Assembly (NCBI RefSeq): GCF_027213645.1 | Contig: NZ_JAPWGL010000001.1 | Coordinates: 992,001-1,056,000 of the forward strand | DNA: 64,000 nucleotides | DNA from: Pedobacter rhodius | GTDB lineage: Bacteria > Bacteroidota > Bacteroidia > Sphingobacteriales > Sphingobacteriaceae | Reading direction: 5' to 3' | Shown here: positions 6,266 to 22,660 of the stretch, piece by piece | Numbering within the stretch: the stretch's first letter is position 1 | Layout of the letters: every line of letters begins with the position of its first letter | Program-made: the position numbers and the translations under genes | Notes under the pieces: generated by a model | Seen by the model: the letters and a program-made list of their open reading frames with translations, nothing else | The model's database searches: none | Told to the model about the DNA's origin: nothing

Positions 6266-6273
6266 CAGAAGGG

Positions 6274-6525: not shown

Positions 6526-6582
6526 AAAATTGGTAATCTATTTATTTTAAACTGGAACAAATATATAGGTCTAATTGGATAG
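6475..6582 (+). pseudogene. truncated fibre gene: signal peptide only
   Basis: The ATG and 17 codons match the start of the fibre gene at 8177 (MKYLFLLLLSVAGFNAY), then the sequence departs and stops after 35 codons with unrelated residues. The remnant keeps its full upstream region, including the shared element and the TAGATTTG box. It is best read as the left end of a duplication whose body was lost or replaced. The intact secreted-protein gene at 6595 starts 13 bp after its stop and could now be driven by this promoter. Confidence 0.7.
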
Positions 6583-6594
6583 CAAAATAGTATA

Positions 6595-7251
6595 ATGAAA
6601 AGAAAATTATTATTTTTCTTACTGGTTATTGGTTTAAGCAGTCAGGCACAAATAACAGCGATACATGGTATAATCGCTAAAAAGAAAACGGTTGCATCCG
6701 ATTTGCTAACAGGTTATGCTTTTCTTAATTTATCGGTAGGGCAATCAGATGTTTCGATTACAAGAATTGGTAATACAGAAACCTGGAGATTATATAATGA
6801 TGGCGTTGGTAAATCACAACCTGGTAAAAAATTTGTAAAGGGTAGTGCCTTTGGTATTCAAAAAAAGGCGAACACTTATCAACAAGTACTTTCAATCACT
6901 TATGTTCAGGGTAGTAATGGAAATTACATCGCTTTATCAATGGCTTTTGACGAAAATGGTAGCTTAAAAATAACGGCGAATCACGATGTCGATGTTATTG
7001 ATGATACACCAACTACTCAACCAGGTATTGGTCAATATTCAATTTTTGAAGATATAAGTACTGGGACAAGCCCTTTATCTACACGTATCATCAGGCATAG
7101 TATTTTAGATGTGGATAAAACAACAGTTGTCTATTATAAGGATTACACGATTCATAATACTTCAGAAAATGACAGTGTGATAGACTTTGTTATGATTAGT
7201 CAGAACGGTGTGATAAACTATCCGCAAAGTAAAAATACCGTAGCCTATTAA
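6595..7251 (+). CDS. secreted hypothetical protein with HG-x2-AKKK N-terminal signature
   Basis: A 218-residue protein with a clear Sec signal peptide (MKRKLLFFLLVIGLSSQAQ), then ITAIHGIIAKKK. The same signature, SVAVHGMLAKRK, follows the signal peptide of the 211-residue protein at 11665, so the two share an N-terminal module while their bodies differ. The rest appears beta-rich, with no cysteine pair, lipobox or T9SS C-terminal domain visible and no recognised catalytic motif. The ATG follows the truncated fibre leader directly. Probable location is the periplasm or cell surface; function unknown. Association with the fibre proteins is inferred from gene order at both loci. Confidence 0.75.
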   Translation: MKRKLLFFLLVIGLSSQAQITAIHGIIAKKKTVASDLLTGYAFLNLSVGQSDVSITRIGNTETWRLYNDGVGKSQPGKKFVKGSAFGIQKKANTYQQVLSITYVQGSNGNYIALSMAFDENGSLKITANHDVDVIDDTPTTQPGIGQYSIFEDISTGTSPLSTRIIRHSILDVDKTTVVYYKDYTIHNTSENDSVIDFVMISQNGVINYPQSKNTVAY

Positions 7252-7460: not shown

Positions 7461-7780
7461 CCCCATCTAGTCTTAGCATCCCGCAATCTGGCACGAGCTT
7501 TTCTATTCATTAACTCTAGCGCAAGCGTCCCGCTTGTGCTTTAACACGGTAATAGATTTTGGTTTTTAAAGGCTAATTAATATTCGATTAATAATTAGTT
7601 TTACGAATATATGATTCGTCCCATCTGGCGCGAGCTTGTCAGCTCATAACTCTAGCGCAAGCGTCCCGCTTGTGCTTAAGCGGTAATAGCGTAATAGATT
7701 TGGTCTTCAACGGTAATTGTCTCGATTTATAATTAACTTTTCAAATATATGATTCGTCACAAGCGAGACGCTTGCGCCAG
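7461..7780. repeat. REP/BIME cluster between small secreted gene and fibre gene 1
   Basis: Two forward REPs at 7519-7539 and 7655-7675 and one reverse REP at 7758-7777 are each linked by the AT-rich spacer ending in TTTTCAAATATAT or TTTTACGAATATAT. A degenerate unit precedes them at about 7461-7490 and another lies at about 7621-7645 (CATCTGGCGCGAGCTTG). The order forward REP, spacer of roughly 80 bp, reverse REP matches the 5424-5540 element, so these are dispersed composite units of one family. The interval 7252-7976 has no credible gene; otherwise it holds only these repeats and a hairpin at 7908-7938. Confidence 0.8.
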
Positions 7781-7907
7781 GAATGTTCTTAAATAGACTT
7801 TTATGTTATTTAAAACTGCAAATTTAAAATAGATTGCTTCGTCGTTCCTTGTCGCAACGACCACCTTGGAGTTTGGCATAAAGAATAATAAGTTATTGCA
7901 TAAAAGA

Positions 7908-7976: not shown

Positions 7977-8227
7977 GACTGGATAGTTCAAAAAACTAAT
8001 TTATATTTCCTTGTATTTGAACTTTAATTACCTCCTTTTCGATTTCCTTTCATCAGGCTAAACCGTAGTTCCGACACGCAATTGCGGAGATTCATCAAAG
8101 TTGTTTTTAAGGGTGCATAATTATCTGCAAATTAGATTTGTTAGATAACGTTTTAACCAAACAAACCAAAACTAAGATGAAATATTTGTTTCTGCTCCTG
8201 CTTTCAGTAGCGGGCTTTAATGCTTAT
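7977..8227. repeat. long direct repeat, copy B (leads into intact fibre gene 1)
   Basis: Partner of 6274-6525. It carries upstream element b, the TAGATTTG box at 8133-8140, the leader and the first 17 codons of the fibre gene at 8177. This copy is followed by an intact gene and is the probable donor. Confidence 0.9.
8048..8078 (+). promoter_or_regulatory. fibre-family upstream element, copy b
   Basis: The element runs from TTTCATCAGGC to CCGACACG and ends 98 nt before the ATG of fibre gene 1. A TAGATTTG sequence at 8133-8140 fits the Bacteroidota -7 consensus TAnnTTTG, but a good -33 box at the usual spacing was not found. The conserved element may therefore be an activator site upstream of that promoter. 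Confidence 0.6.
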
Positions 8228-9979
8228 AGTCAGATTGCTGTGCTTAATGCCGATAGTGCCCGTTTAGGCAATCCGGCGGGTACCGGAACGGTAGCCCTGC
8301 ATGGTACCACACTGATAAAAAATATTGCCGAAGGTAATGCTGCAGACAGTGTTTTGGTGAGGGGTAGCGATGGCGCGGTACGATTTGTTAAAAGAAGCAG
8401 TTTTGGCGCATTAGGTATTCCTTTTAGCAATGGAGATAACCTGCCCGGATCAAATTATAACGGGCGGTTTTTGTTTAATACTTCACTCCAAAAGTTTAGG
8501 ATATATGATGCAACGGCCGGAACCTGGAAAGATGCTACGCCAGTTGATATGAGTAATTATTATACTAAAGCAAACATTGATTCTTTAACAACGTCGTTTG
8601 GAACGCAACTGTTCAACTTTGTACAAGATAGAGCACTTAATGCCGAGGTTTTACATAAAACCGGCAATGAAAATAAAACTGGCGATCTGGGGCTCGTTGG
8701 AACCTTTTCAGTTAATGGGTTGAGTTATTTTAATAACCTGCTTCAGGTTTCCAACCCCGGAACAGATCAGTATCTGCCAGTAGCTCACTTTTATGCCCCC
8801 AATAATACTGTTGCAGGTAATACTTCTCAATTTCGTTTTGGTACTGCAGGAACTTATAACAATGCGGCAGAATGGCGTTTTATGTATAATGGTGATCAAA
8901 GTAACTCGAACCGTATGGATTTTAGTTTTTTTGGACAAGGAAATCCAATAATAAGTTATACTGCAGAACGCAGGGTTGGTATTGGTACTACAACCCCTGC
9001 ATACCTGCTTGATGTTAATGGAGAGGCCAGGATTAAAACCCAGTTACTATTGGGAGAAAATGCAATTTCCCATGGCAGTTATCAGGTAGATATGAGGCGT
9101 AATGGAACAGGAAATAGCCAGGGTGTTTTTATGGCCACTCAAAACGGATATGATATTGCGTTAAGACAAAATGCAGGTACAGATAACTTTGGTATTTATA
9201 CTGAACAGACCAATACAGATGCATTCACACTTACGCAGTCCGGAAATGTTGGTATCGGAAACCTGACACCGAACGAAAAATTGGAAGTTTCAGGGAATAT
9301 AAAAACGACAGGTGGAATAGCTGCTACCTCGTTCAATAAAGTAAATATTACTGCTCCTGTAAATGGTTCCACGCTAACTATTGCAGATGGTGCATCATTA
9401 ATAACTTCAGGTGCTTTTTCGAACACCTTAACCACTACTGCTACCAGCAATAATACCTTGCCAAGCGGAACTAATACGCTTTACAGCACGAAATCTGCTT
9501 CTGTTACTTCGGCGCAACTGGCCACTACTTTAACAGATGAAACCGGTACCGGAACAGTTGTGCTTTCTGCTTCACCAACCCTTACGGGTACACCAACGGC
9601 ACCTACTGCAGCATCAGGTACCAATACCACTCAATTAGCGACCACTGCCTATGTACAGACTGCCCTTTCAACGGTAAATATTAATACGCAAACAGCAAAC
9701 TATACACTGGTATTGGCTGACGCCGGAAAATTCGTACAGCAGAATGTATCATCCGCAAATAATGTAACTGTACCTGCAAATGCTTCTGTTGCTTTTCCGG
9801 TAGGTACGCAGATTCTGCTTCGACAGATGGGATCAGGTCAGGTAACCGTTGTTGCCGCTTCAGGCGTTACGCTACAGTCGGCAGATAATGCCTTAAAAAG
9901 CCGGGTTCAGTTTGCGCCGATTACGCTGATAAAAGTGGCAACCAACACTTGGGCAGTAATGGGTGATTTGACGAATTAA
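8177..9979 (+). CDS. secreted phage-tail-fibre-like protein 1
   Basis: The ATG at 8177 is preferred to an in-frame TTG at 8138 because it gives an immediate signal peptide (MKYLFLLLLSVAGFNAYSQ) and 600 residues. Residues about 20-80 are the shared family module (IAVLNADSARLG, VALHGTTLIKNIAEG, DSVLVRG, VRFVKRSSFG). The middle contains tail-fibre-type segments (RVGIGTTTPAYLLDVNGEARI, NVGIGNLTPNEKLEVSGNI) and TAPTAASGTNTTQLATTAYVQTAL. The last about 95 residues, from YTLVLADAGKFVQQNV to TWAVMGDLTN, resemble a C-terminal beta domain common in phage tail proteins. First gene of a probable operon with fibre 2 (34-bp gap), a small secreted protein and PorP/SprF. No sorting signal is visible, so the mode of surface attachment is unknown. 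Confidence 0.82.
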   Translation: MKYLFLLLLSVAGFNAYSQIAVLNADSARLGNPAGTGTVALHGTTLIKNIAEGNAADSVLVRGSDGAVRFVKRSSFGALGIPFSNGDNLPGSNYNGRFLFNTSLQKFRIYDATAGTWKDATPVDMSNYYTKANIDSLTTSFGTQLFNFVQDRALNAEVLHKTGNENKTGDLGLVGTFSVNGLSYFNNLLQVSNPGTDQYLPVAHFYAPNNTVAGNTSQFRFGTAGTYNNAAEWRFMYNGDQSNSNRMDFSFFGQGNPIISYTAERRVGIGTTTPAYLLDVNGEARIKTQLLLGENAISHGSYQVDMRRNGTGNSQGVFMATQNGYDIALRQNAGTDNFGIYTEQTNTDAFTLTQSGNVGIGNLTPNEKLEVSGNIKTTGGIAATSFNKVNITAPVNGSTLTIADGASLITSGAFSNTLTTTATSNNTLPSGTNTLYSTKSASVTSAQLATTLTDETGTGTVVLSASPTLTGTPTAPTAASGTNTTQLATTAYVQTALSTVNINTQTANYTLVLADAGKFVQQNVSSANNVTVPANASVAFPVGTQILLRQMGSGQVTVVAASGVTLQSADNALKSRVQFAPITLIKVATNTWAVMGDLTN

Positions 9980-10013
9980 CGTTTATTCTGTATTAACGGT
10001 TAGAATTGTATAT

Positions 10014-11663
10014 ATGATGAGAAACCTGATTACTTTATTTTTTATTTTATTCGGTCTTTCTGCTGTTGCACAGGTAACGGTTGTACATGCAGATAGTGTT
10101 CGGCTTGGAACGGTTTCCGGAGTTGGAGGTGTTGCCCTTTATGGAAAAACATATTTAAAAAATTTGACTGAAGGTACATTTATCGATAGCGTACTGGTTG
10201 TTAATGGTTCTGGAAAAATCAGGTTTATTAAAAGAAGTGAATTTGCAGCTGGCGGTGGCGGTAATTATATTTTAGTTAATCCATCATCCCCGCAAGAAGC
10301 ATCTATTGATATTTCAGGGATGATTACAGTAAAAGGTACCGCACAATTCGAGGGTCAGACCAATTCAAAAAACCGGAGGGTTTTATATGGAACAAACCCA
10401 TATAGCCAACGAGATACCCAGCAAGGTTACATTGAGGAAACTACTTTAGAGAATTACTTAACGGGTGGCTTAAATCAATTTCACGTCCTTGGCTTCTTTT
10501 TTTCGGAAGCTTATTTCAGTAATAGTTTTGAAATGTTTTTTACCTCTTATGATGGCGCCATAAACCGAAAATATGTTGTAATTGAAGGTTATGGAGGCGG
10601 GGGAGATGGTGGTTTGGGTGAAGAGAATTCAACTGGCTGGTTTAAGATAATACCCAGCGAGGATGGTGGGACACGTGATGGCATGATCGATTTGGAAGCA
10701 AAATACATATACCCTTATGGTTGGTGGATTAGAATACGAAGAACGGTATCCGAACAGGATAATTATGATCGTTCATTTTCTCTGTATACAAAAACTTATC
10801 AAGGGACTTTTATACCTTATGATTCTGCCTACAATGGTGTAATTGGCTCTCAGACCGGAGTAGATTCAGTGGCTTGTACGAGCAGCTATGGCGGAAGGCG
10901 ATATGCGCAGCGGATGGAAGTGTATGGTGCGCCCGTTAAACCAACTGATGTAGTAAGATTACAGGATTTAGGCGGTACACTCCCAGCATCAGGTAATGCA
11001 TTTATACAGGCAAATCCTATTGAACCACAACTTGCTAATGTTGATTTGAATGGATCAATTGCCCTTAGAGGCGATAATGGAATCACTGCAAATAATGCCT
11101 CATTAGACAATTTAAATGTCGGTATTGCTAATATTAGAAGAGCAATTTTTAATTCAAATAGCAGTTCGTCTGGCAATTATGTAGAATTTGCGTCAGCTTT
11201 AGGTATTGCAAACTGGCAATTTAAAACGGATGATACAGAAGATGGTTTTGATATGTTTAGAATGGGTCTAGGCGGTACAGATGTTTTGCATTTAAGAGGT
11301 GACGGGCATTTGACATTACCGACCATTCCATCTGTTGCAAATGCAGATTATTCCCTTTTAGTACGCGACAATAATAGCGGCGAAATTAAACAAGTTGAAG
11401 TAAATGCAAATAGAGCTGCTTCTGCAGCAGAAATCAAACAATTTTCTGCCAAGGGAAGTGGAAATGGTTCATCTACAACAATCTCTATTCCGCACGGGCT
11501 TCCAAGTATTAATACATCGGCATCGGTTGTGGTAACGGCAAATAATGCTGCTGCTGCGGGAATAAGTTATGCAACAATAGATGCAGAATATGTCAATGTA
11601 TTCTACACAATTGCTCCAGTCACGGGAACAAATAACCTGTCTTATTCTATTTCAATAAAGTAA
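10014..11663 (+). CDS. secreted phage-tail-fibre-like protein 2
   Basis: A 549-residue protein with signal peptide MMRNLITLFFILFGLSAVAQ, followed by the family module (VTVVHADSVRLG, VALYGKTYLKNLTEG, DSVLVVNGSGKIRFIKRSEF). Two copies of the linker motif come next: ILVNPSSPQEASIDISG at about residue 83 and FIQANPIEPQLANVDLNG at about 330. The C-terminus, from about 480 (ISIPHGLPSINTSASVVVTA to NNLSYSISIK), looks like a beta-sandwich tip domain. It starts 34 bp after fibre 1, and the next gene starts 1 bp after its stop, so all are probably cotranscribed. Likely a surface fibre or adhesin; the ligand is unknown. The central region has no recognised domain. Confidence 0.8.
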   Translation: MMRNLITLFFILFGLSAVAQVTVVHADSVRLGTVSGVGGVALYGKTYLKNLTEGTFIDSVLVVNGSGKIRFIKRSEFAAGGGGNYILVNPSSPQEASIDISGMITVKGTAQFEGQTNSKNRRVLYGTNPYSQRDTQQGYIEETTLENYLTGGLNQFHVLGFFFSEAYFSNSFEMFFTSYDGAINRKYVVIEGYGGGGDGGLGEENSTGWFKIIPSEDGGTRDGMIDLEAKYIYPYGWWIRIRRTVSEQDNYDRSFSLYTKTYQGTFIPYDSAYNGVIGSQTGVDSVACTSSYGGRRYAQRMEVYGAPVKPTDVVRLQDLGGTLPASGNAFIQANPIEPQLANVDLNGSIALRGDNGITANNASLDNLNVGIANIRRAIFNSNSSSSGNYVEFASALGIANWQFKTDDTEDGFDMFRMGLGGTDVLHLRGDGHLTLPTIPSVANADYSLLVRDNNSGEIKQVEVNANRAASAAEIKQFSAKGSGNGSSTTISIPHGLPSINTSASVVVTANNAAAAGISYATIDAEYVNVFYTIAPVTGTNNLSYSISIK

Positions 11664-11664
11664 G

Positions 11665-12300
11665 ATGAAAAATTTTTTATTTATAACGCTGTTATTTTTA
11701 TACTCAGTTTCTTCTGCGCAATCTGTCGCTGTGCATGGCATGTTGGCTAAAAGAAAGAGTAGCACAACTGTAGCGCCCATACAAACTGTTAACATAAATA
11801 TGGATACCGAATCCAGAGGAGCAATTCCAAATTGGAATACCTGGATTTATAATAGTTCTGATGGCTTGAATTTATTAAATAGTGCTGGAACAACTACTGG
11901 TTTTAATCTGTTGAAAATCCAGGGCGGCTCCTGGACAGCGGAGAATGAAGGCAGTCCGGCAGGAGATTCAGAATTTCCGGGCGCTGTGCTTGCTTATATG
12001 ATGAATGGAAATAACCTTACAATTGAACTTCGATTACAGGGATTGGATGCTTCAAAAAGATATGAACTCATTTTTGCAGCTTATCAGAATTATAACGGAC
12101 CGGAAGATAATACCAATATAACCATTAATGGCATAACAAAAGCAACAGGGCTATCTAATGCCAATACAATTTACAAAACTAATTTTAGTGTTTCAAACCC
12201 CACATCGGGAATTATTAATATTACTTTCACTCCATACGATACTACTGGAAATGGCTGGACTTGTATAAATGCGATGATTTTAAAAGAGTATGCTAACTAA
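11665..12300 (+). CDS. small secreted beta-rich protein with HG-x2-AKRK signature
   Basis: A 211-residue protein with signal peptide MKNFLFITLLFLYSVSSAQ and then SVAVHGMLAKRK, matching the N-terminus of the protein at 6595. The body (AIPNWNTWIY, LNLLNSAGTTTGFNL, LTIELRLQGLDASKRYELIFAAYQ, ITINGITKATGL) has the pattern of a jelly-roll or galactose-binding-like domain, as in phage and carbohydrate-binding proteins; this is a resemblance, not a firm assignment. Its ATG is one base after the fibre 2 stop and it lies 66 bp before PorP/SprF. The arrangement suggests a periplasmic or surface component of the fibre system. Confidence 0.75.
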   Translation: MKNFLFITLLFLYSVSSAQSVAVHGMLAKRKSSTTVAPIQTVNINMDTESRGAIPNWNTWIYNSSDGLNLLNSAGTTTGFNLLKIQGGSWTAENEGSPAGDSEFPGAVLAYMMNGNNLTIELRLQGLDASKRYELIFAAYQNYNGPEDNTNITINGITKATGLSNANTIYKTNFSVSNPTSGIINITFTPYDTTGNGWTCINAMILKEYAN

Positions 12301-12366
12301 TAGGAATGCATGTTTTTTAACTTAACTTTAAAATAATTATTAGAATTACAGATTTGAAAAGATAAT

Positions 12367-13377
12367 TTGAAAATATTTATAGCGCTTTGTTTTTATTTAA
12401 GTTTTTTCCTTTATACAGCAGCCCAGCAAAAGCCGCAATACACGCAATATGTACTTAATAATTACCTGCTAAATCCTGCTTTAAGCGGGGTTGAAAACTA
12501 TACTGATGTAAAACTGGGCTACCGGCAACAATGGGCCGGACTTGCTGATGCGCCTAAAACCGCTTTTGTATCTGCACATTGGGCGCTGGGCAGCGAGTAT
12601 TTGTGGTCTAACGCACTTTCCTTTGATGAAAAAGGAAATGATCCCAGGAGCCGAAGTTACCAACAATATTATACGGCGTCTCCCGCACATCATGGTGTCG
12701 GTTTTTCAGCAGTAAATGATAAAGCCGGCCAGCTTACAACCACCGCCTTTAATTTAAGTTATGCTTATCATTTAATTTTAAATGATAAACTTAATATGTC
12801 TGTGGGTATAGCAGGTGGTTTTACCAGGATAGGCATAGATGCCAACCGGCTGCTGTTAGAAAATCCAAACGATCCTTCACTGGGTAATGCCATAGAAAGC
12901 CAGTTTAAGCCTGATGTTTCTGCCGGGATATGGCTGTACGGTTCCAGGTTTTTTTCTGGGATTTCTGTTCAGCAACTGCGGCCTCAGCAACTAAGTTTTT
13001 CTGACGATGGTAATTATAACCAGGGCAAACAGGTGCCGCATTTCTTTTTGACCGGTGGTTATAAGCTTTATGTATCAGAAGATATGCACCTTATACCGTC
13101 TGTAATGGTTAAAGCTGTTCAGGGTGTACCATTATCTGTTGATGCTAATCTTAAACTGGGGCTTAAAGATAAGGTGTGGATTGGTGCGGGTTACCGTAAT
13201 CAAGATGCTGTAACGGTTATGGCAGGCGTAAATGTAAGCAGTCTCATTAACGTAACTTACGCTTATGATTTTACCACGTCGGGACTGAACCAGGTTTCTA
13301 CCGGAAGCCATGAAATTGTGCTGGGCTTTTTACTAAATAATGTTTATAAAGTAATCTGCCCGAGGAATATGTGGTAA
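12367..13377 (+). CDS. PorP/SprF family type IX secretion-associated outer-membrane protein
   Basis: The 336-residue frame opens with TTG; no ATG gives a signal peptide and the frame start (KIFIALCFYLSFFLYTAAQ) fits one. The mature start QKPQYTQYVLNNYLLNPALSGVENYTDVKLGYRQQWAG is the hallmark of the PorP/SprF family, and the rest alternates beta strands typical of an outer-membrane barrel. SprF-like proteins help export or anchor cognate proteins with type-B C-terminal domains (known from Flavobacterium). A type-B CTD protein is encoded convergently 1 bp away, so the two are probably partners. The gene is last in the fibre operon, which ties that operon to T9SS. Confidence 0.9.
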   Translation: MKIFIALCFYLSFFLYTAAQQKPQYTQYVLNNYLLNPALSGVENYTDVKLGYRQQWAGLADAPKTAFVSAHWALGSEYLWSNALSFDEKGNDPRSRSYQQYYTASPAHHGVGFSAVNDKAGQLTTTAFNLSYAYHLILNDKLNMSVGIAGGFTRIGIDANRLLLENPNDPSLGNAIESQFKPDVSAGIWLYGSRFFSGISVQQLRPQQLSFSDDGNYNQGKQVPHFFLTGGYKLYVSEDMHLIPSVMVKAVQGVPLSVDANLKLGLKDKVWIGAGYRNQDAVTVMAGVNVSSLINVTYAYDFTTSGLNQVSTGSHEIVLGFLLNNVYKVICPRNMW

Positions 13378-13378
13378 G

Positions 13379-15472
13379 CTACCGGAATAGTGTTATGGAG
13401 CCGCTATATTTTATTTCCTTATTAAAAAGATCGATACCGTTTATCAGGTAATAGTAGGCGCCTACCGGTACGCTTTGTCCATTTCTGTCGCCCTTCCAGG
13501 AATCAAACAGGTTGTTAGAAGAAAAGATGCGGTCGCCATATCGGTTAAATATATTGATTTGGAATTTTTTAAGGTTTGTGATGTTGATATTGAATTCATC
13601 ATTTATGCCATCACCATTTGGTGAAAATGAATTTGGAATGAGTAAAGCAGAACTTTGCAGCATAACCAGGTTATTTACATTTGCCTCACTCATACAGCCG
13701 TTAACAGAAAAAGCGCGCAGGTTTATGGTATACACCCCTGCATTGGTATACAGATGTGTAGGGTTGGCTTCTGCTGAAATTGTTCCGTCACCAAAATCCC
13801 ATTCATATGTTGTGGCATCCTGCGATTGGTTAATAAAACTGATGGGGGCGGGGACAGCAAATTTTCCGGGCAAAAGCGGGTCAGTTGTAAAACCGGCTAT
13901 AGGTTTGTTTATAATAGCGGGGATGGTCATTATAGCCTGATCACTTTCACAACCGTTAAGTTTTATGCTCACACTATAATCGCCCGCCTGTCTGGAACTG
14001 GTTACGGGTACGGATATCGTAGCGGTTTCCGCTTTAAAGTTGTCTGGCCCAATCCAGCTATATATTGCATTTTCGACCTCGCTGATGGATAATACCAGCT
14101 GATCGCCAATACAGTAGCTTTTTTTACTGGCTGTAATTACCGGTTTATCGGGTTGAAAAGAAACATTAAAACTATAGCTGGAAATGGTGCTGCAACCCCG
14201 GGCTCCGATGGCTTCGAGTACAACTGTTTTTTTACCGGGACTGTTATAGGTTACCTCGTACGGCCCCTGGCCGCTCGCCGGCGCTGTATTGGCATCGGTG
14301 CCAAAATTCCATTTTAAGGCGTTGTAGTTAGCGCCTGTTGAGCTAAAAGTGAAACTTTGATTTTTTGAGCAGGGTGCATTCGCCTGCATACTAATTTTTG
14401 AAGAAGGGCCTTTAAATTCGCCCGTTCCGGAAAAAGAAATGGTAAAACCGTTGTTTCCGTTAGAAAAATTATCCACTAAAAGCGCATATACATGGTCGCT
14501 TACCATATCTACAAATTTAACAAAACCATCTTGCCCTGTTACACAGCCGGATTGCTCAGTTAAATCTGTAGAAGTATTATCCATACCGGTTTGGTAATAG
14601 ATTGGCATACAGTTTACCCCACTTCCTGCAGCGCAGCGGATGGCATTTTTCGATAAAATATTCTTACAATCGCCGTTTACCCCTAAATCGTAAAGTACCC
14701 AGTCAATATCATCGGTAATGGCGGTAGGTGTAATGATAAAAGTAAGTGTTCCGTCGTTTGCAGCGGTCCAGGTATACCATGCTGAATTTGATTCGGTGCT
14801 TAAACAACTTCCTGCCGATTCCTTATTGTTGCTTCCGGCACCGCTGATGTTCAGTTCGGTAAAGGTTTCCTTATTACAAAGGATAGATGCTGAAGAACAA
14901 TCCTGTCCGGGTTTTTTTGGTGGGTTATAATTATTGATACAAAGCTGGAAACTACCTGTTGCGTCGTTTTCGGCACTGATGCGGATGTAATATTCCTGGC
15001 CAATACTCAATCCGCCTTTATATAAGGTTGTTAAATTATTCGAACTGGTCATCGAGCCAATCAGTTCAGTTAAAAGTTTGTTTTCGAGCAGGTAAACAGC
15101 AGCCAGCGGATTAACTAAGGTGTTGGCATTGGTGCCCGATTTTCCGGTAATGTTTACAGATATATCGGTTGCAATTGCGGTAAACTTAAACCAGATGTCT
15201 TTACCTTCGCTGTTCCAGAAACTGCCTTTTTTATAACCGCTGGCTGTAGCATCCATGTTATTAAATGCACCGGATGCAGAACAATAGGCCGAAAGACTTT
15301 TTAATTCAATAGCATTCGCCATATCGTCATTTGTTGGAACGGCTGCTAAGGCATAAAGTTTTAAACCGTTGCAAAGCATCAAAACCGTTAAAAAAAGTTT
15401 TGTGTAAAACCCTGGTATATACTTTTTACGGTTATAAAGACAAACATTTTTTTGCATCCTAAACATTTGCAA
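13379..15472 (-). CDS. PKD-domain protein with T9SS type-B sorting domain (gliding-motility-associated C-terminus)
   Basis: A 697-residue protein. A hydrophobic signal segment lies at about 22-45 (FLTVLMLCNGLKLYALAAVP), so the true start may be slightly downstream of the ATG at 15472. Residues about 45-350 contain two beta domains with repeated DIWFKFTA / AWYTWTA motifs. PKD-type domains follow at about 355-450 (NALKWNFGTDAN, PGKKTVVLEAIG) and 535-610 (TTYEWDFGDGTISAEANPTH). The last 85 residues (SFSPNGDGINDEFNI, IFNRYGDRIF, WKGDRNGQSVPVGAYYYLI) are the type-B CTD recognised by T9SS. It should be exported and held on the cell surface, probably as an adhesin. The convergent PorP/SprF gene is its likely export partner. 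Confidence 0.9.
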   Translation of the reverse strand: MQMFRMQKNVCLYNRKKYIPGFYTKLFLTVLMLCNGLKLYALAAVPTNDDMANAIELKSLSAYCSASGAFNNMDATASGYKKGSFWNSEGKDIWFKFTAIATDISVNITGKSGTNANTLVNPLAAVYLLENKLLTELIGSMTSSNNLTTLYKGGLSIGQEYYIRISAENDATGSFQLCINNYNPPKKPGQDCSSASILCNKETFTELNISGAGSNNKESAGSCLSTESNSAWYTWTAANDGTLTFIITPTAITDDIDWVLYDLGVNGDCKNILSKNAIRCAAGSGVNCMPIYYQTGMDNTSTDLTEQSGCVTGQDGFVKFVDMVSDHVYALLVDNFSNGNNGFTISFSGTGEFKGPSSKISMQANAPCSKNQSFTFSSTGANYNALKWNFGTDANTAPASGQGPYEVTYNSPGKKTVVLEAIGARGCSTISSYSFNVSFQPDKPVITASKKSYCIGDQLVLSISEVENAIYSWIGPDNFKAETATISVPVTSSRQAGDYSVSIKLNGCESDQAIMTIPAIINKPIAGFTTDPLLPGKFAVPAPISFINQSQDATTYEWDFGDGTISAEANPTHLYTNAGVYTINLRAFSVNGCMSEANVNNLVMLQSSALLIPNSFSPNGDGINDEFNINITNLKKFQINIFNRYGDRIFSSNNLFDSWKGDRNGQSVPVGAYYYLINGIDLFNKEIKYSGSITLFR

Positions 15473-15502
15473 ACGATATCAGCTACGCAATAACTTAAAT
15501 AT

Positions 15503-16318
15503 TCAGGCACGTTTAAGTGCGTTTGAGTTTTCAAGATAAGGCTCATTATCAATTTCTTTAATTATTTTTGAGTCCCTCGTTCTTCCGGTTTTAATGGTAT
15601 ATAATTCAATAAAATCATTCAGTTCCTTTTTATAGCTTTTACCAACCTTAACCAAAATATCATTATCCAGGGTAATAATATCCCCGCCAATGGTTTTAAT
15701 GCTGTCAACCGAGATGACAAAAGTTCGGTGGATTTGTATAAAGCCTGGTTGTCTAATGAGCAGGTTCTTTACTTCATCAAATAAGATGTAGGTAATTACG
15801 GTAGCGGTTTCGGTAAATATTTTCACATAATTACCCTGACTCTCAATGGCGATAATTTCATCGAACTTTACTTTGGTTAACTTGTTCTTATCTTCCCGGT
15901 TTTTTACAAAGAAAAACTTATCCGGTTTCTGTACTTTCATGGGAATCTGCACATTTACGCCTTCAAGAAATAATTTTTCTATGAGTTTGGAGAATTTTGA
16001 AAAAGAAAACGGTTTGTGTAAGAAACCATCGGCATGCAATTCATACGCTTGTGTGGCATAATGGCTATGCGCAGTTGTAAATACCAGTTTACGGGTCTTG
16101 TGCCGTAGCGCTGCACATAAATCAATACCTGAAATACCAGGCATTTCAATATCCATAAATATCAAATCGACAACTTCGCCTTTGCTGATTTCGCAAAGCG
16201 CAACAAGCGGATCCTGGTAATGTTTAACAAGATTTAATACAGGCATGTTACCTATATAGTCAGAAATAGCGTCCAGGCAGTCAGGCTGGTCGTCAATGGC
16301 TATGCAATTGATAATCAT
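15503..16318 (-). CDS. LytTR-family response regulator
   Basis: A 271-residue two-domain protein. The receiver domain spans about 3-118, with D9, D10 and the phosphoacceptor D56 in IFMDIEMPG and a conserved Lys in FLHKPFSF. A LytTR DNA-binding domain covers about 140-250 (VKFDEIIAIESQGNYVKIFT, HRTFVISVDSIKTIGGDIITL). No histidine kinase gene is adjacent, so the cognate sensor (usually a LytS/YpdA-like kinase in Bacteroidota) is elsewhere. It lies 30 bp downstream of the type-B CTD gene on the same strand and beside the repeated upstream elements of the fibre genes, which makes it a candidate regulator of the island; that link is inferred only from proximity. Confidence 0.9.
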   Translation of the reverse strand: MIINCIAIDDQPDCLDAISDYIGNMPVLNLVKHYQDPLVALCEISKGEVVDLIFMDIEMPGISGIDLCAALRHKTRKLVFTTAHSHYATQAYELHADGFLHKPFSFSKFSKLIEKLFLEGVNVQIPMKVQKPDKFFFVKNREDKNKLTKVKFDEIIAIESQGNYVKIFTETATVITYILFDEVKNLLIRQPGFIQIHRTFVISVDSIKTIGGDIITLDNDILVKVGKSYKKELNDFIELYTIKTGRTRDSKIIKEIDNEPYLENSNALKRA

Positions 16319-16488
16319 AAAGCGTTAAAATAGAGTTTTGTTTGGTGTATCTAAGATAGGTTTTAATTTACATTTCAGGCAAAAAAAATCATACAGAAAT
16401 TTAGTTAATTATTTCCGGTCCCTAATCGAATTTCATGCACCTGATAATGCAGTGTTAATTTAGATTTTTTTTTTTATTTCTCTATATC

Positions 16489-16520
16489 TTTTCATCAGGC
16501 AATACCTTACTTCCAAAACG
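16489..16520 (+). promoter_or_regulatory. fibre-family upstream element, copy c (orphan)
   Basis: TTTTCATCAGGC, AATACCTTACTTCC and AAAACG match copies d and e except for one base (CCTTA instead of CCGTA). No gene starts about 100 nt downstream, so this is an orphan or decayed copy. It lies 171 bp upstream of the LytTR gene, which is transcribed the other way. The rest of 16319-16848 contains only AT-rich sequence with no credible gene. Confidence 0.5.
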
Positions 16521-16848
16521 TTTTATGGTACTTTCGTCATATTTGCCTTTTGATAAAGCTAAATGTCTGCAGGTTTATCGGTTATTTGCGAAATGGACTA
16601 ACCCATTGGCTGCGTAAGTTTTTAATTAAAAAGATTCTGCATTTCAGAGTATGCAGTCCGATACTTCGTTTCTCCAGGGTCAGAAATTTATAATGTCTCC
16701 TTCATCAAAGATTATGCTGAATTAATGGATTGCTAAATAATTTTTCTCTGCATAACAAATTGATAAACAATTCCTTTGAAAAAATAACAATTACTCCAAT
16801 TACTATTCGAAAAAAGAAAAAAACGCGATACATCTGAATTTTCTGTTT

Positions 16849-17300
16849 AATTTTCATCAGGCAATACCGTACTTCCAAAACGTTTTCCATGCGTTTCATC
16901 ATATTCACTTTCAGGTCATTTTAAAACGCTGCATATTAGTGCTTACTGTTTGATTAAAACCAGGCAGTATTACCAAACAACAGATATGAACTTCCGAAAA
17001 ACGACAAGGAGATTAATAGTAAGCATTTTGCTTCTGGTAATGTCGAAAATGGCTATGGCACAAATTCATGTAATTAATGCCGATAGCCTTAAGCTTGGGG
17101 AAACCGCTGGTACGAATGGCATAGCCTTTTATGGAAACCCTTATTTTAAAAACATAGGACTGGGAAAACTTTCTGATAGCATTTTAGTTAGGCAGGCTGA
17201 TGGTAAAATTAAATTTATGCCAAGGAGTTTAATGTTTAGTGGGGTTGGGGGAGGTTCTTACATACAGGCTAGCCCGTCTAGCCCGCAAAACGCTAACATT
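16849..17300. repeat. long direct repeat, left copy (promoter, leader and N-terminal 105 codons)
   Basis: About 452 bp almost identical to 18803-19254. It includes upstream element d, the leader, the signal peptide, the shared module and the first linker motif. The copies differ by scattered single bases, and one leader change puts a TGA in frame upstream in the right copy, proving that both genes start at the ATG of MNFRKTTRR. After the linker codons the sequences become unrelated. Confidence 0.92.
16851..16882 (+). promoter_or_regulatory. fibre-family upstream element, copy d
   Basis: TTTTCATCAGGC, AATACCGTACTTCC and AAAACG, ending 103 nt before the ATG at 16986. It is identical to copy e over its 32 bp and lies inside the long duplication, so d and e are not independent evidence for constraint. 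Copies a and b belong to a different, diverged duplication and are. Confidence 0.6.
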
Positions 17301-18044
17301 AGCTTAGAGGGAAATATTACGACTAAAGGCGGTCAATATGCTTACGGATTTATTGCGCAAGACGTTGACGGAAGCGCTAATATAAATTCTCATGTATCCG
17401 TAACCTGGTACGGCGTAACCGCTGATAATGGTATATATGATGGACAACATAAACAGTTGATAATGGATCCTATAGACGGATCTTTTAAATTTTCCGATGG
17501 AACTTATTTCACCCGCATAATTTCGCCTGTCCTTGAAAACTCCGCTACAGTAACTTTAAGAAATTTTAACGGAAACATAGCATTCACAGAAGATTTTGCA
17601 GCGGGTAAGACGGTAGGCGCTAATACTACTGGTAACGCAGCAAGTGCAAGTTCTGTGCCTTGGAGTGGTGTATCGGGAAGGCCGACATTAGAGAGCGGAA
17701 CCTATACACCTATATTAACGAGCAATAGCGGTAGCGTGTCCGCTTCAATTTCAATTGGTCACTACATTAGAGTAGGAAATCAAGTATCGGTCAGTATAAA
17801 TTTAGGCAGTTATAGTGGTTCATCAGGGGCTAACACATTTTATATAACATTACCTATACCCTCAAATTTAACAGCAACCGACGACGTTTCAGGTACGTGG
17901 AGTGTACAAGGTAGCGCAAGTTATCCAGCACAAAGAGTTGTCAGCGATGAATTGGGGGATAGGGCATATTGCGGTAGTATAGGAACTTTGCCCGGTATGA
18001 CAGGCGGCGGAGGTAATATAACATTTACTTATACGATTAAATAA
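16986..18044 (+). CDS. secreted phage-tail-fibre-like protein 3
   Basis: The start at 16986 is chosen over an upstream TTG at 16950 because the duplicate gene at 18940 has a stop codon in the equivalent leader. The protein has 352 residues: signal peptide MNFRKTTRRLIVSILLLVMSKMAMAQ, family module (IHVINADSLKLG, IAFYGNPYFKNIGLG, DSILVRQADGKIKFMPRS), one linker motif (YIQASPSSPQNANISLEG) and a variable middle. The C-terminal tip, about 240-352 (ESGTYTPILTSNSGSVSASI, HYIRVGNQVSVSINL, NITFTYTIK), resembles receptor-binding tip domains of phage fibres. It is monocistronic and sits beside a frameshifted small membrane gene. Confidence 0.8.
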   Translation: MNFRKTTRRLIVSILLLVMSKMAMAQIHVINADSLKLGETAGTNGIAFYGNPYFKNIGLGKLSDSILVRQADGKIKFMPRSLMFSGVGGGSYIQASPSSPQNANISLEGNITTKGGQYAYGFIAQDVDGSANINSHVSVTWYGVTADNGIYDGQHKQLIMDPIDGSFKFSDGTYFTRIISPVLENSATVTLRNFNGNIAFTEDFAAGKTVGANTTGNAASASSVPWSGVSGRPTLESGTYTPILTSNSGSVSASISIGHYIRVGNQVSVSINLGSYSGSSGANTFYITLPIPSNLTATDDVSGTWSVQGSASYPAQRVVSDELGDRAYCGSIGTLPGMTGGGGNITFTYTIK

Positions 18045-18063
18045 TTTATAATAATAAATAATT

Positions 18064-18316
18064 ATGGTTCTATCTGGTTTGATGTTGGTAATGGGCATAT
18101 TAGGTATATTCTTTTTAAACGCTTTTTAAAGCAACAGATTTTATTGCAACTAATACATTTCAGCTTGCAATTTTTATTAAAGAAAACTTAGCGGTATGGC
18201 TTTGGGCATTCTATGTAATTCTTGTATCAATTTTGATTTTATATATTGAACCCAACGCAAATGAAGTTATAAAAAATCTTTTCGGGCTTGATTTAGCAAA
18301 CAAAAAAACAGGCTGA
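18064..18316 (+). pseudogene. frameshifted small membrane protein gene
   Basis: An ATG at 18064 opens a hydrophobic frame (MVLSGLMLVMGILGIFF) that stops at 18127-18129 inside GCTTTTTAAAGC. Removing one T from the T5 run joins it to a second stretch, from KATDFIATNTFQ through LAVWLWAFYVILVSILILYI to LANKKTG with a stop at 18314-18316. The restored product would be about 83 residues with two membrane segments and a charged tail, holin-like in size and topology, though no holin family was recognised. The break is either a real inactivating indel, a sequencing error or, less likely, programmed frameshifting. It follows the fibre 3 gene by 19 bp. Confidence 0.55.
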
Positions 18317-18448
18317 CTGTTGTTCGGTGCGGGGCTATGCGGTCTGCCCCATCGTCCTCGTTTGTAACGAGTATGAGTTAGAAAAGCGATTCTATCGCTA
18401 AATAAAAATTAGCTAATAGTCATAAATGGAACGTTAGCACTAAACTAT

Positions 18449-18800
18449 TAGCCACAGATTCGCAGATTTTTTACAGTTACAAGCTAAGTTTTTTTATCAC
18501 TGAAGCATGTTTTCCTGCCCGCAGTCAGGAACTTCACGGCATTACAATATTTCTGTGCTTTGGTTCTTTTCTAATGCGAGTATATTGATATTTTAATTTA
18601 TGGAGTGAAAGAGACCATTCGAATTTTAAAAGCTTAATGGATATTCTGTTAAATAATTAGTTTTTGGAATATATTATTAGTCACAAACTAGAACCTAGCG
18701 CCAGAGTGTATATTAACCAGATATTTGTTGGCAGCCTGGTTAATCTTCAGTATACATCTGGCGTACGCATCCCGCCTGTAATAATGAGCTCTTTCCAAAA
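18449..18800. repeat. degenerate REP/BIME remnants in the fibre 3 - fibre 4 gap
   Basis: The interval 18317-18802 has no intact gene. A CCACAGATTCGCAGATT word near 18452 also occurs near 7387 in the other fibre-gene gap. A spacer remnant (GATATTCTGTTAAATAATTA, then TTTTTGGAATATAT) lies near 18643-18675 and is followed by a mutated reverse REP at about 18681-18702 and another broken unit near 18755-18780 (CATCTGGCGTACGCATCCCG). The palindromes no longer pair fully, so these appear to be old insertions. Confidence 0.55.
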
Positions 18801-18802
18801 TT

Positions 18803-19254
18803 AATTTTCATCAGGCAATACCGTACTTCCAAAACGTTTTCCATGCGTTTCATCATATTCACTTTCAGGTCATTTTAAAACGCTGCATATTAGTGCTTAC
18901 TGTTTGACTAAAACCAGGCAGTGATACCAAACAACAGATATGAACTTCCGAAAAACGACAAGGAGATTAATAGTAAGCATTTTGCTTCTGGTAATGTCGA
19001 AAATGGCTATGGCACAAATTCATGTAATTAATGCCGATAGCCTTAAGCTTGGGGAAACCGCCGGCACGAATGGCATAGCCTTTTATGGAAACCCTTATTT
19101 TAAAAACATAGGACTGGGGAAACTTTCTGATAGTATTTTAGTTAGGCAGGCCGATGGTAAAATTAAATTTATGCCAAGGAGTTTAATGTTCAGTGGGGTT
19201 GGAGGAGGTTCTTATATACAGGCTAGCCCCTCTAGCCCGCAAAATGCTAATATT
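18803..19254. repeat. long direct repeat, right copy
   Basis: Partner of 16849-17300, spaced 1954 bp from it. It feeds a completely different, longer fibre body. Homologous recombination between the two direct copies would delete or swap the intervening fibre 3 body. Confidence 0.92.
18805..18836 (+). promoter_or_regulatory. fibre-family upstream element, copy e
   Basis: Same 32 bp as copy d, ending 103 nt before the ATG of fibre gene 4 at 18940. Confidence 0.6.
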
Positions 19255-22113
19255 CGTACGAATGGAGCATTATCCGTTTCAGCAGGAAATAGTTCTATTG
19301 GTTTATCATCTGTAGGTAATGATGAAACAGGCATTTTTTATCGTCAATTTGCATTAGACCCTAATTCAATGCAATGGTATATTTATAGACAATCTGACGA
19401 AAAATATTTAGGGTTTTATCAATTTGGAAAGCAATTTCAGTTCTATGATGATTTTAATGAAAACGGATTGATGTACCAAAAGCCAATGAATAATTTACAG
19501 CCACTATCATTAATTAATAAAGGTTATGCAGATAATACCTATTCGTTGATATCTCCAACAGGTTCTTATATACAAGCTAGTCCATCTAGTCCGCAAAATG
19601 CTAATATAGATATTACCGGTAGTATTCAAAATGGGGGCTTTTATTCAGCTTCAGGCAGTATTGGATTATTATCTGCTCCAATAGGAGGGACTAACCATCC
19701 GAATATAGCAATTGGGGACCATGATACAGGTATAAATTGGTATGGCGATGGGGATATTGCTTTACGAGGAAATGGTAATGATTTTATAAGGTTTAGTCAA
19801 GGAAGTTTATTATACTTTCCTGTTAATCCACGGTTAGATGTTATTCCTACCCAAATATTAACAAGGGATGCTACTACAGGAGAAGTTAAATATGTGCCTT
19901 CGACTTCGCTTCAAAGTTCCGGAACTGGTGCAACGTCTGTGTTTGGACGAACGGGTGCTATTGCCGCACAATCTGGAGATTATTCATCTTTCTATTATCC
20001 TTTGAATGGTAATCCTAGCGGGTTTTTAACAAGTGTTCCTGTTCAAAGTTTTGCCAGTTTAACGGGTAAGCCAACTACGCTAACAGGTTATGGTATTACT
20101 GATGCATATCCTTTGAATGGTAATCCTAATGGTTTTTTGACAAGCGTTCCAGCACAGAGTTTTGCTAGTTTGACAGGTAAGCCAACGACTTTAGCAGGTT
20201 ATGGTATTACAGATGCTGTTCCAGGTTCAAGAACTGTTAACGGGCAGTCATTGAGCGGCAATGTAAATATTAATGATATTTCCGGTACTTCAGGAAATAC
20301 AACTTTATGGTTAGGCCAATCTGTAAACTGGACTGACGATGGTGTAAGCAATATTAATGACATTATTACAATGGGTAACAATGGTGTTGTTGGTAGGAGT
20401 AACCAAACGCAGGTTAGAAATTTTTTAGGCCTGAATTCTTTAGCTTATTCAAATGAAGATTTAAACAGATATGTACAAGGCGATAACCTTACAAGAACAA
20501 CCGGAAAAACAAGCAATAATGTAAATGTTGCTTTACCTTCTGGTTTTTATGATGGTAATAGCACAACGGGTATGCCTAATTCGGATTGGTATCATTTAAT
20601 TAATTCACGGCACGTAAATCAAAATGTTAATTATCAGATGCAGCTTGCAGGTCAATTTTTTAGTGGTAATGAATTTTATCTTAGAACTATTGCAAATGAT
20701 GTTAATATGGGTTGGAAACGTATTACAACTGATAATAGATTAGGTAGTAATGCCTGGGAAAGCAAAACAAATTTATCTCAATATGTAAATGATTTGGGTA
20801 ATTATGGCGGCTGGCTGCTTGCAGATGGCGCAACTTATGCAGGATTTGCAAGTAATGACATTAATTACCCATACATGAGATACAGCGCAAATAATGCCGT
20901 TGTCAGGCTATTACGTTATGATCAGGTAGGTTCTGGAGCTTTTTTAAATGGCAGCGTCGCGGCTGCAGCTAATACTGTTGTGCAAAGAGACAATAATGGT
21001 TATATACAAAATAGTTATATCAATACAACTGATGACGTCAGTCCATCTTTGGGTTATTTAATAGGTAAAAATGGTAGCGATAATTACCACAGGACCTACT
21101 CGCAAGCTACAGTACGCGCATTCTTAGGATTAGGTGCTAATGCATATGAATCAAAAACAAATTTATCACAATATGTAAATGATTTAGGATACGTTACGGC
21201 TAATGGATCGGTAAATTATGCAACGTCGTCTGGGTCTGCTAATTCATCAACCAAATTTATGTCGAGCTCGCATCCCGATAATTTTTATCTGGTTAATAAT
21301 TGGGATGGTGCACGCTGGAATGTAACGTCAAATCATGGTGCTCCTGTACGTGTTGGTTGGGCTGATAATGCCGGAAGTGTTGACTGGAGCAATATATCAA
21401 ACAAACCTTCAAATTATGCGGTTTCTGGTGGGCCAATAAGTCAGTTTGATAATGATTATGGTTATGCAAGAGCACAGGACATAACGCTTTCAACTGTAAC
21501 CCTTAGAGGTAGCGATACGCCACATAACCTTTATTTCTATAAAGGCGCTTCAGATAATGTAGATCAGGGTTCTGGGATTAGTTTCTCTTCGGAGGCGGGT
21601 GGAAGTCCAACTTACTCATCGTCATGGCAATTAGGAAGCAACGGCGATATGGTAAATTTTGGTTTTGATGGTATCTGGCAGACTAATCTGAGAATTTATA
21701 GAAATGGACATGCCTGGTTAAGGGGCTATCTGAGTCAGGGTTCGGATATTCGGTTGAAAAAAAACATAAAAGAGTTAAAAAGCGTTTCTGAAAATTTAAG
21801 AGCTGTACGGGCGGTAGAGTATGACCGTGTTGACAATGAGGAGCATCAAATAGGTTTTATTGCACAAGATATGCAGAAAATTTTCCCAAATCTGGTGATT
21901 GAAAATGGAGGAGAAAAGAAGATGCTGGGAATTGCATACTCAAATTTTACGGTTCCTTTGTTAAAGGGCTGGCAAGAACATGATGTTCTTATTGCAGCGC
22001 AGCAAACAAAAATTAAAACATTAGAAGAAGAACTCGTAATTCAAAAAAATGAGCTGAAAGATCTTAAAGAAGAACTAAAACAGCTAAAAGAATTCTTGAA
22101 GGTTAAAAAATAA
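18940..22113 (+). CDS. secreted phage-tail-fibre-like protein 4 with C-terminal S74 intramolecular chaperone
   Basis: A 1057-residue protein: signal peptide and family module as in fibre 3, then two linker motifs (YIQASPSSPQNANI at about 90 and about 208). A 37-residue unit repeats twice in tandem at about 353-426 (PLNGNP, GFLTSVP, SFASLTGKPTT, GYGITDA), the collar-type repeat of phage tail fibres. A second repeated unit (ESKTNLSQYVNDLG) occurs at about 607 and 737. The last about 115 residues form a peptidase S74/endosialidase-type chaperone (SDIRLKKNIKELK, EYDRVDNEEHQIGFIAQDMQ) followed by a coiled coil. In this family the domain trimerises the fibre and cleaves itself just before the Ser of SDIRLKK. 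A trimeric shaft is therefore likely. The phage-type body behind a Sec signal is the odd feature. Confidence 0.88.
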   Translation: MNFRKTTRRLIVSILLLVMSKMAMAQIHVINADSLKLGETAGTNGIAFYGNPYFKNIGLGKLSDSILVRQADGKIKFMPRSLMFSGVGGGSYIQASPSSPQNANIRTNGALSVSAGNSSIGLSSVGNDETGIFYRQFALDPNSMQWYIYRQSDEKYLGFYQFGKQFQFYDDFNENGLMYQKPMNNLQPLSLINKGYADNTYSLISPTGSYIQASPSSPQNANIDITGSIQNGGFYSASGSIGLLSAPIGGTNHPNIAIGDHDTGINWYGDGDIALRGNGNDFIRFSQGSLLYFPVNPRLDVIPTQILTRDATTGEVKYVPSTSLQSSGTGATSVFGRTGAIAAQSGDYSSFYYPLNGNPSGFLTSVPVQSFASLTGKPTTLTGYGITDAYPLNGNPNGFLTSVPAQSFASLTGKPTTLAGYGITDAVPGSRTVNGQSLSGNVNINDISGTSGNTTLWLGQSVNWTDDGVSNINDIITMGNNGVVGRSNQTQVRNFLGLNSLAYSNEDLNRYVQGDNLTRTTGKTSNNVNVALPSGFYDGNSTTGMPNSDWYHLINSRHVNQNVNYQMQLAGQFFSGNEFYLRTIANDVNMGWKRITTDNRLGSNAWESKTNLSQYVNDLGNYGGWLLADGATYAGFASNDINYPYMRYSANNAVVRLLRYDQVGSGAFLNGSVAAAANTVVQRDNNGYIQNSYINTTDDVSPSLGYLIGKNGSDNYHRTYSQATVRAFLGLGANAYESKTNLSQYVNDLGYVTANGSVNYATSSGSANSSTKFMSSSHPDNFYLVNNWDGARWNVTSNHGAPVRVGWADNAGSVDWSNISNKPSNYAVSGGPISQFDNDYGYARAQDITLSTVTLRGSDTPHNLYFYKGASDNVDQGSGISFSSEAGGSPTYSSSWQLGSNGDMVNFGFDGIWQTNLRIYRNGHAWLRGYLSQGSDIRLKKNIKELKSVSENLRAVRAVEYDRVDNEEHQIGFIAQDMQKIFPNLVIENGGEKKMLGIAYSNFTVPLLKGWQEHDVLIAAQQTKIKTLEEELVIQKNELKDLKEELKQLKEFLKVKK

Positions 22114-22399
22114 TAGACGATATTTTATGATAATTGATAAAATTTTCAGTCTATTTACTCACCTCAAAATTCCAGCTTTCGAGAGTATGATAATAGGAAA
22201 CTTAAATCTGCGTAAATCATCTGAATCTGCGGTAAAAATACCTGGTAAAACCTTATTCTATTTTTTTTATATATTTAAGTGCAAAAGATTATCCTGGCTT
22301 TAAAACCTAATTGTTATTCAATTAATTAGTTTTTTATTATCTCTCCAATTTGGTTACAATTGTATAAACCTAGTTCAAGACGAGACAGCTTTTTGATAA

Positions 22400-22660
22400 T
22401 TTATTCGTCACAAGCGAGACGCTTGCGCCAGAGTGGCGAAATATAGGTCAGTTGACTGGTTTTAATCATGCCTCATAGTTGGTCTGACGATTTAAATTGT
22501 CTTTATATTATGCACTCGTTAGAAACGAGCGCAAGCGGGTTCACTAGCTCTAGCGCAAGCGTCCCGCTTGTGCTTAAATTGTAACAGGGTTAGGTTTTTA
22601 AAGCCTAATCGATATTCTGTTAAATAATTAGTTTTTCGAATATATGATTCGCCAGAGTAT
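22400..22660. repeat. REP/BIME elements at right edge of fibre island
   Basis: A reverse REP lies at 22409-22428 and a forward REP at 22553-22573, followed by the AT-rich spacer (GCCTAATCGATATTCTGTTA, then TTTTTCGAATATATGATTCG) to about 22652 and a truncated reverse end. A related AACGAGCGCAAGCGGGTTC word lies near 22524. These are the last members of the family seen in the window. The surrounding interval 22114-22790 holds no credible gene. Confidence 0.78.

Follow-up and report, generated by a model that had tools for sequence, protein, structure and literature searches.

Predicted exported fibres with a common N-terminal module

How would a bacterium come to export proteins that are built like phage tail fibres, and what would hold such proteins at its surface? 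These questions are raised by a 64,000-nucleotide (nt) stretch of the 4.68-Mb Pedobacter rhodius genome (positions 992,001-1,056,000 of contig 1, hereafter the window; G000 denotes this genome) in which four genes starting at 8177, 10014, 16986 and 18940 encode proteins with a predicted signal peptide, a common N-terminal module and dissimilar C-terminal parts (Table 1). From the sequences and their comparative analysis we think it likely that these are adhesive fibres, with or without a part for the PorP/SprF-family carrier encoded downstream of two of them (12367). The fuller reading, which we favour tentatively, is that they are mosaic surface fibres resembling the MAT fibres of the predator Bdellovibrio bacteriovorus (Caulton et al. 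2024, PMC10769870), that the module is their anchor on the cell side, and that they are displayed with the carrier.

Each of the four genes begins with ATG and encodes a hydrophobic stretch with alanine or serine just before a glutamine. Using a simple rule-based check rather than SignalP, we predicted a signal peptide with alanine or serine directly before glutamine in all 12 module proteins that we found, including two from genome G058 for which an ATG inside a longer frame was chosen as start; by this rule the export signals claimed in the original prediction hold throughout. The glutamine after the predicted cleavage site matches the Bacteroidetes Q-rule, by which signal peptidase cleavage exposes this residue (PMC5837995).

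The module itself measures 62 residues, within the 60-65 first proposed, with 44-100 % pairwise identity among the four window proteins and 37-100 % among the 12 from four genomes, whose 12-row alignment has 13 invariant columns. The likeness is beyond chance since the N-terminus of 18940 as lone query retrieved the other three fibres from its own genome (E = 2e-66, 2e-23 and 5e-15). The module profile had no significant match among solved structures (PDB). From its conservation and position we infer that the module is a cell-proximal anchor; the original prediction had suggested an undescribed anchor domain, and close functional parallels to such an anchor are already in print (MAT fibres, PMC10769870).

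It is also conceivable that the fibres, though exported, have no surface anchor and are either periplasmic or released, in vesicles or into the medium. The four fibres carry no lipobox, the residue after cleavage being glutamine and not cysteine, and profile scans found no type-B C-terminal sorting domain (TIGR04131 / CHU_C) on them, for which reason we rejected them as type-B cargo of the type IX secretion system (T9SS). The Q-rule, moreover, holds for periplasmic proteins too (PMC5837995). However, the periplasm offers little use for phage-type receptor-binding and S74 domains, the diversification of tips described below implies targets outside the cell, and surface display is described for MAT fibres, which have this plan (PMC10769870), so that we regard a periplasmic or released fibre as improbable.

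C-terminal parts and their resemblance to phage proteins

Behind the module, from residue 96 on, no BLASTP match among the four fibres was found at E <= 1e-5; 16986 and 18940 have about 20 more residues in common past the module because a segment of approximately 450 nt is duplicated. Residues 496-598 of 8177 resemble a phage minor tail protein (PHROG 8780, 3e-24), and residues 488-599 matched 246 phage records, 223 of them from Gordonia phages. The C-terminal end of 18940 is an S74 chaperone (PF13884, 3e-14, motif SDIRLK), as had been claimed, and this protein matched 140 phage records as well as PHROGs. The tip of 16986 (residues 231-327) gave a single phage match, to a product of the tail-gene region in an uncultured podovirus (E = 2e-5). 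All phage matches listed (the best 15 of 246 for 8177, the best 15 of 140 for 18940 and the only one for 16986) lie outside the module. Among seven related module fibres from other genomes six matched phage profiles in a PHROG scan, the 439-amino-acid (aa) fibre of G058 having none, and S74 was present in three of the ten module proteins scanned with Pfam (12 are known). Protein-database searches with residues 1-100 of 10014 and with 16986 returned only self-matches. The proposal that phage-type fibre domains differ in each protein therefore stands in that the tips are unlike one another, with strong phage matches for 8177 and 18940 and a weak one, to one record, for 16986; it does not extend to 10014. 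Directly behind gene 16986 lies an apparent frameshifted remnant of a small membrane protein (~18060-18316), the longer, 62-residue piece of which had no PHROG or phage match.

With their C-terminal domains and the combination of a fixed N-terminal anchor and exchangeable tips, the proteins resemble phage tail fibres and S74 endosialidase-type tips (PHROG 8780, 5668 and 1699; PF13884), and they could on that account be phage remnants or domesticated pieces, for example decoys or anti-phage traps, and not adhesins. Unlike phage tail fibres, however, they are predicted to be exported by Sec, they are encoded by long intact open reading frames (ORFs), and one gene order recurs in related species. 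As originally stated no phage structural gene is apparent nearby, a Pfam scan of 19 ORFs at 1-31,281 having found none, nor does the module appear to belong mainly to virions, since a search of viral contigs made after a pattern pre-filter found no relative. On these grounds we rejected the idea that the locus as a whole derives from a phage or prophage, and consider a remnant, decoy or trap very unlikely. The view of the fibres as host surface proteins built from phage parts is supported in part, by the predicted export signals, the chromosomal context (RHS, ECF sigma/FecR, TonB receptor/SusD and T9SS genes) and the phage matches outside the module among those listed, and fails for 10014, in which no phage-type domain was found.

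A further explanation would make the proteins tail fibres of an extracellular contractile injection system (eCIS) or tailocin. Particles of the eCIS type assemble in the cytoplasm, and a Sec signal peptide would not suit components assembled there. Genes for a sheath, tube, baseplate or other eCIS part were not seen among the scanned neighbour ORFs, and with the signal peptide this led us to reject eCIS membership of the fibres. The plan is nonetheless a similar one, as eCIS tail fibres pair conserved N-terminal eBAP anchor domains with diverse tips including S74 and occur in Bacteroidota (PMC12923769); as an account of the Pedobacter proteins we hold it to be extremely improbable.

Duplication of the front cassette

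Genes 16986 and 18940 begin with copies of one cassette comprising 139 nt of upstream sequence, the signal peptide, the module and one YIQASPSSPQNANI motif. Past the cassette end the identity between 16847-17299 and 18801-19253 drops abruptly to about chance level. A duplicated cassette with such a sharp break suggests a route to a new tip, by copying of the front cassette and joining of a different C-terminal part. While the copies are observed directly, the exchange of tips would be their consequence, and we consider that new tips have probably been acquired by duplication of the upstream-region/signal-peptide/module cassette onto other C-terminal parts. A truncated copy of the front end of 8177 lies further upstream (Table 1).

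A 31-base motif (TTTCATCAGGC...) in the upstream regions has five copies in the window (6346, 8048, 16490, 16852 and 18806) and none in shuffled sequences, the pattern having been written from these same five copies. Four of them begin 129-134 nt before an ATG, including that of the truncated copy at 6475, and the copy at 16490 is an extra one.

Distribution of the module

Clear relatives of the module were identified by profile search in 12 genes from 4 of 145 Pedobacter genomes (four in G000, five in G098, two in G058 and one in G144), a genome being counted as module-bearing at E <= 3e-22 over nearly the whole profile, while at E <= 0.01 a total of 70 genomes were positive. G098 is Pedobacter sp. 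BAL39, whose contig NZ_ABCM01000015.1 contains the first 60 bases of each of the five module genes. Most of the weaker hits, which occur in 66 further genus genomes, cover columns ~6-50 in frames of approximately 200 aa, and some lie in longer frames (G017, G019 and G107). Those read were L011, L012, L019 and L048 of the own genome. L011, L012 and L048 were rejected as module genes, since they belong to a single family of integral-membrane proteins that resembles the module by chance. L019 (G024, 829-1680, minus strand) encodes an exported fibre in which just the latter module half (columns 39-77) is present, a part that by eye we read as a general fibre motif; this fibre adjoins two related genes of a different kind (MAKQSLNTIKAWFKTGLKP...).

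The profile search over Bacteroidota proposed with the original prediction gave no hit outside the genus in 201 family genomes at E <= 1e-3, and in 395 phylum genomes at 1e-4 gave only one weak half-module (G633) beyond the own genome. A seven-protein module profile compared with 5.8 billion proteins, of which the best 7,990 candidates were scored, retrieved only Pedobacter sp. BAL39, a Pedobacter metagenome-assembled genome and one metagenome protein. Clear copies of the module were found only in Pedobacter.

Gene order and a separate clade of carriers

In G000, G098 and G058 fibre genes are followed by a gene for the PorP/SprF carrier and then by a convergent gene for a T9SS type-B protein, with a small secreted protein intervening in G000. 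Of 144 genus genomes, 11 encode the type-B protein of ~684 aa (E <= 9e-241); all four module-bearing genomes are among them, a co-occurrence with hypergeometric probability 1.9e-5 when the genomes are treated as independent and their relatedness is ignored. The carrier lies beside the type-B gene in ten of these 11 genomes, nine times stop-to-stop within 5 nt and in G061 ~1.1 kb away, and not in G144. At eight of the 11 loci of the carrier clade described below the slot upstream of the carrier holds exported fibre genes (in G000 in the second gene upstream), which fall into two classes, the second lacking the module, bearing a 'PDYVF' C-end and found in G061 (one gene), G159, G127, G148 and G009 (several). 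An 850-aa type-B paralogue has a different neighbourhood with no carrier or fibres in the ORF lists of eight loci. Fibre-carrier coupling thus recurs in related species but is not strict.

In five genomes the 'PDYVF' fibres occupy the place that module fibres have elsewhere, before a carrier of this clade, and some shaft and knob domains are common to both classes. Unlike the module fibres they lack the module and by eye are conserved at the C-end and variable at the N-end. Those seen (L089, L090, L092-L094 and L052) are often arrayed and have a conserved coiled-coil C-end, possibly a degenerate S74-like chaperone; the two that were scanned had no significant Pfam match.

Carrier 12367 has a single mature cysteine, located in its C-tail (KVICPRNMW) at position -6. 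In a search of the genus with a ten-carrier profile the best 11 matches (E <= 2.4e-173) all have a cysteine six residues from the C-end (KVxCPxxxW), although ten of these 11 fibre-type carriers were in the search profile with their tails included. The cysteine is absent from all of 19 further carrier loci (0/19; E 1.5e-163 to 3.4e-157); the profile had matches in 113 of 144 genomes, and beyond these 30 loci the one examined was L104 of the own genome, which has no such cysteine. In a tree built without the last 12 residues the fibre-type and sister carriers separate in one change in 200 of 200 bootstrap trees (support 57/98), with very long outgroup branches and a bootstrap that had not settled. 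On these sequences the fibre-type carriers are a separate clade.

The two groups of carriers also differ in gene order. None of the 11 fibre-type carriers has a type-B gene upstream (0/11), whereas all 19 Cys-less sisters have a co-directional type-B-like gene there, 12 recognised by pattern and seven by eye from an ending like that of the type-B-like gene of L104 (TIGR04131, 1.5e-17). The seven other carriers of the own genome likewise all have a TIGR04131 match directly upstream, five over the NCBI cut-off and two below it. Type-B cargo needs cognate PorP/SprF proteins for its secretion (PMC12618676), and anchoring of such cargo by PorP/SprF proteins has been suggested (PMC9143113). The type-B protein at 13379-15472 is probably the cognate cargo of carrier 12367.

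The proposed mosaic fibres and their display

MAT fibres are described as having a signal peptide, an invariant N-domain and S74 or other tips, and as surface-displayed (PMC10769870). The Pedobacter proteins share with them the signal peptide, a conserved domain right behind it, a shaft, variable tips of S74 (SDxxxK) or non-S74 type and several paralogues per genome. They differ in that the module has ~62 residues compared with ~130 for the MAT N-domain, in belonging to a different phylum and in having a candidate anchor gene linked to the fibres. If correctly read they extend the mosaic-fibre idea, with a fixed cell-side module and phage-type swappable tips, to a second phylum, and the carrier would be a specific candidate for the type of anchor called unidentified in the description of MAT fibres (PMC10769870).

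We propose that the four fibres are exported via Sec, as predicted from their sequences, and would form fibres displayed on the surface, as their domains and the MAT parallel suggest, with the module as the anchor nearest the cell and the C-terminal part binding targets on other cells or surfaces. Tips would change when the front cassette is duplicated onto other C-terminal parts. Gene order and the clade split suggest that carrier 12367 with its type-B T9SS partner would hold or display the fibres at the outer membrane, which they would cross without a type-B C-terminal signal. Such an arrangement resembles that of SprB, a long surface adhesin, with SprF and of other type-B/carrier pairs (PMC12635249, PMC12618676, PMC9143113) in the carrier family, the adjoining T9SS type-B protein and the C-tail cysteine. 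It differs in that no type-B C-terminal domain was found on the fibres, that the type-B gene converges with the carrier gene instead of preceding it, and that the tail has a single cysteine and not Cys-x-Cys. If true the arrangement would add T9SS-carrier-linked surface proteins that lack a type-B signal, and could be tested with few genes.

A number of observations weigh against this proposal. Searches with fibre 10014 found nothing in Pfam or PHROGs (E <= 0.1) or in phage or plasmid records, so that this fibre gives no sign of phage ancestry; AlphaFold2 yielded no usable model of the module (predicted local distance difference test, pLDDT, 54; predicted template modelling score, pTM, 0.31) or of 16986 (pLDDT 32.6); and residues 344-434 of 8177 matched the MAT protein Bd2133 (8ond) weakly and with biased composition (E = 8.7e-4). 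The single operon with PorP/SprF first proposed holds for 8177-10014-11665-12367, with gaps of 34, 1 and 66 nt, and does not hold for 16986 and 18940, which lie apart from this run behind the minus-strand genes 13379-15472 and 15503-16318. G048 and G010 have a fibre-type carrier whose adjacent gene is not a fibre, G014 has one with no fibre or type-B gene seen within 16 kb, and G144, a genome 88 % complete, has a module gene and the type-B gene while its sole carrier match at E <= 1e-110 is a Cys-less sister. Four of the seven other carriers of the own genome, each beside a type-B gene, also have a C-tail cysteine, a residue that is therefore not special to fibres, and the tail of 12367 lacks the Cys-x-Cys of SprF. 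Finally the carrier needs no fibre to have a partner, as the convergent type-B protein alone suffices.

The last point leads to the view that the proteins are MAT-like adhesive surface fibres held in some other way, the carrier serving the convergent type-B protein only and sharing an adhesion island with them. Published type-B/carrier pairs function without fibres (PMC12618676, PMC9143113), and the uncoupled loci of G144, G048, G010 and G014, the distance of 16986 and 18940 from the carrier and the cysteine in other carriers all suit it. Against it stand the absence of type-B genes upstream of the carrier clade and the filling of that slot by two classes of exported fibres, and we hold it to be a real if rather doubtful possibility. 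The envelope-system link to PorP/SprF suggested at the outset accordingly gains from recurrence in related species and from the separate carrier clade, and loses in strictness.

Display with the carrier could be taken further. SprF is tied to the moving GldK track via a C-tail disulfide (PMC12635249), and the cysteine of the fibre-type carriers would allow a similar bond, a link to the track that is speculative. GldK is present in the own genome with cysteines at 316 and 429 besides one at 19, among which a counterpart of the published Cys343 may lie. The phage-derived fibres would then be wired to the gliding/T9SS machinery, the module docking them on a PorP/SprF carrier of their own, which a disulfide from its C-tail cysteine would bind to the moving GldK track. 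Phage-type receptor-binding tips exported without a type-A or type-B signal would in this way be borne along the cell surface; this extension we consider unlikely. Literature on fibres linked to PorP/SprF, Pedobacter or MAT proteins contained, among the matches listed, no description of this locus, one paper on new spreading genes proving unrelated, with preprints and most subscription journals outside the coverage.

Features of the locus and neighbouring genes

Table 1 Features of the fibre locus in window coordinates
Feature	Position	Strand	Description
Truncated front-end copy	6316-6526	+	98% identical to 8018-8228; upstream region and 17 signal-peptide codons, then breaks off
Fibre gene 1	8177-9979	+	600 aa: signal peptide, module, VGIG-type shaft repeats, C-terminal phage minor-tail-like domain (residues 488-599)
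Mature N-terminal module, fibre 1	8231-8416	+	
Fibre gene 2	10014-11663	+	549 aa: signal peptide, module, C-terminal part without relatives found
Mature N-terminal module, fibre 2	10071-10259	+	
Small secreted protein	11665-12300	+	211 aa, in the fibre 1/fibre 2/carrier gene run
PorP/SprF-family outer-membrane carrier	12367-13377	+	PF11751 1.5e-75 (254.7 bits), TIGR03519 1.7e-81 (273.9 bits), both over cut-off
T9SS type-B sorted PKD protein (CHU_C / TIGR04131)	13379-15472	-	Convergent with carrier
LytTR response regulator	15503-16318	-	Between the two fibre groups
Cassette copy A	16847-17299	+	Upstream region, signal peptide and module; 439/453 bases identical to 18801-19253
Fibre gene 3	16986-18044	+	352 aa: signal peptide, module, short shaft, tip with one podovirus match (residues 231-327)
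Mature N-terminal module, fibre 3	17061-17246	+	
Cassette copy B	18801-19253	+	Joined to a different C-terminal part
Fibre gene 4	18940-22113	+	1057 aa: signal peptide, module, collar-like repeats, S74 chaperone (SDIRLK), coiled coil (read from sequence)
Mature N-terminal module, fibre 4	19015-19200	+	Identical to fibre 3 module over 62 residues

The LytTR gene was dropped as a candidate regulator of the fibres as no counterpart was seen among the ORFs listed for the other three module loci. The small secreted protein at 11665-12300 and that at 6595-7251, otherwise different, have a common mature start HG-I/M-I/L-AK-K/R-K directly after the signal peptide, which may be another common module, shorter than the first. 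An IS200-like Y1 transposase (PF01797), which we take to be RAYT-like, is encoded at 5645-6178, and a REP-like palindrome occurs in many copies around the fibre genes (~6198-6270, 7511-7692, 7745-7785 and 22396-22590). The window opens (1-3531) with the C-terminal part of an RHS-repeat protein (PF05593) that by eye has an HNH-like end, and RHS/YD-like genes were also seen by eye upstream of the fibre/carrier locus in G061, G159, G048, G148, G098 and G058.

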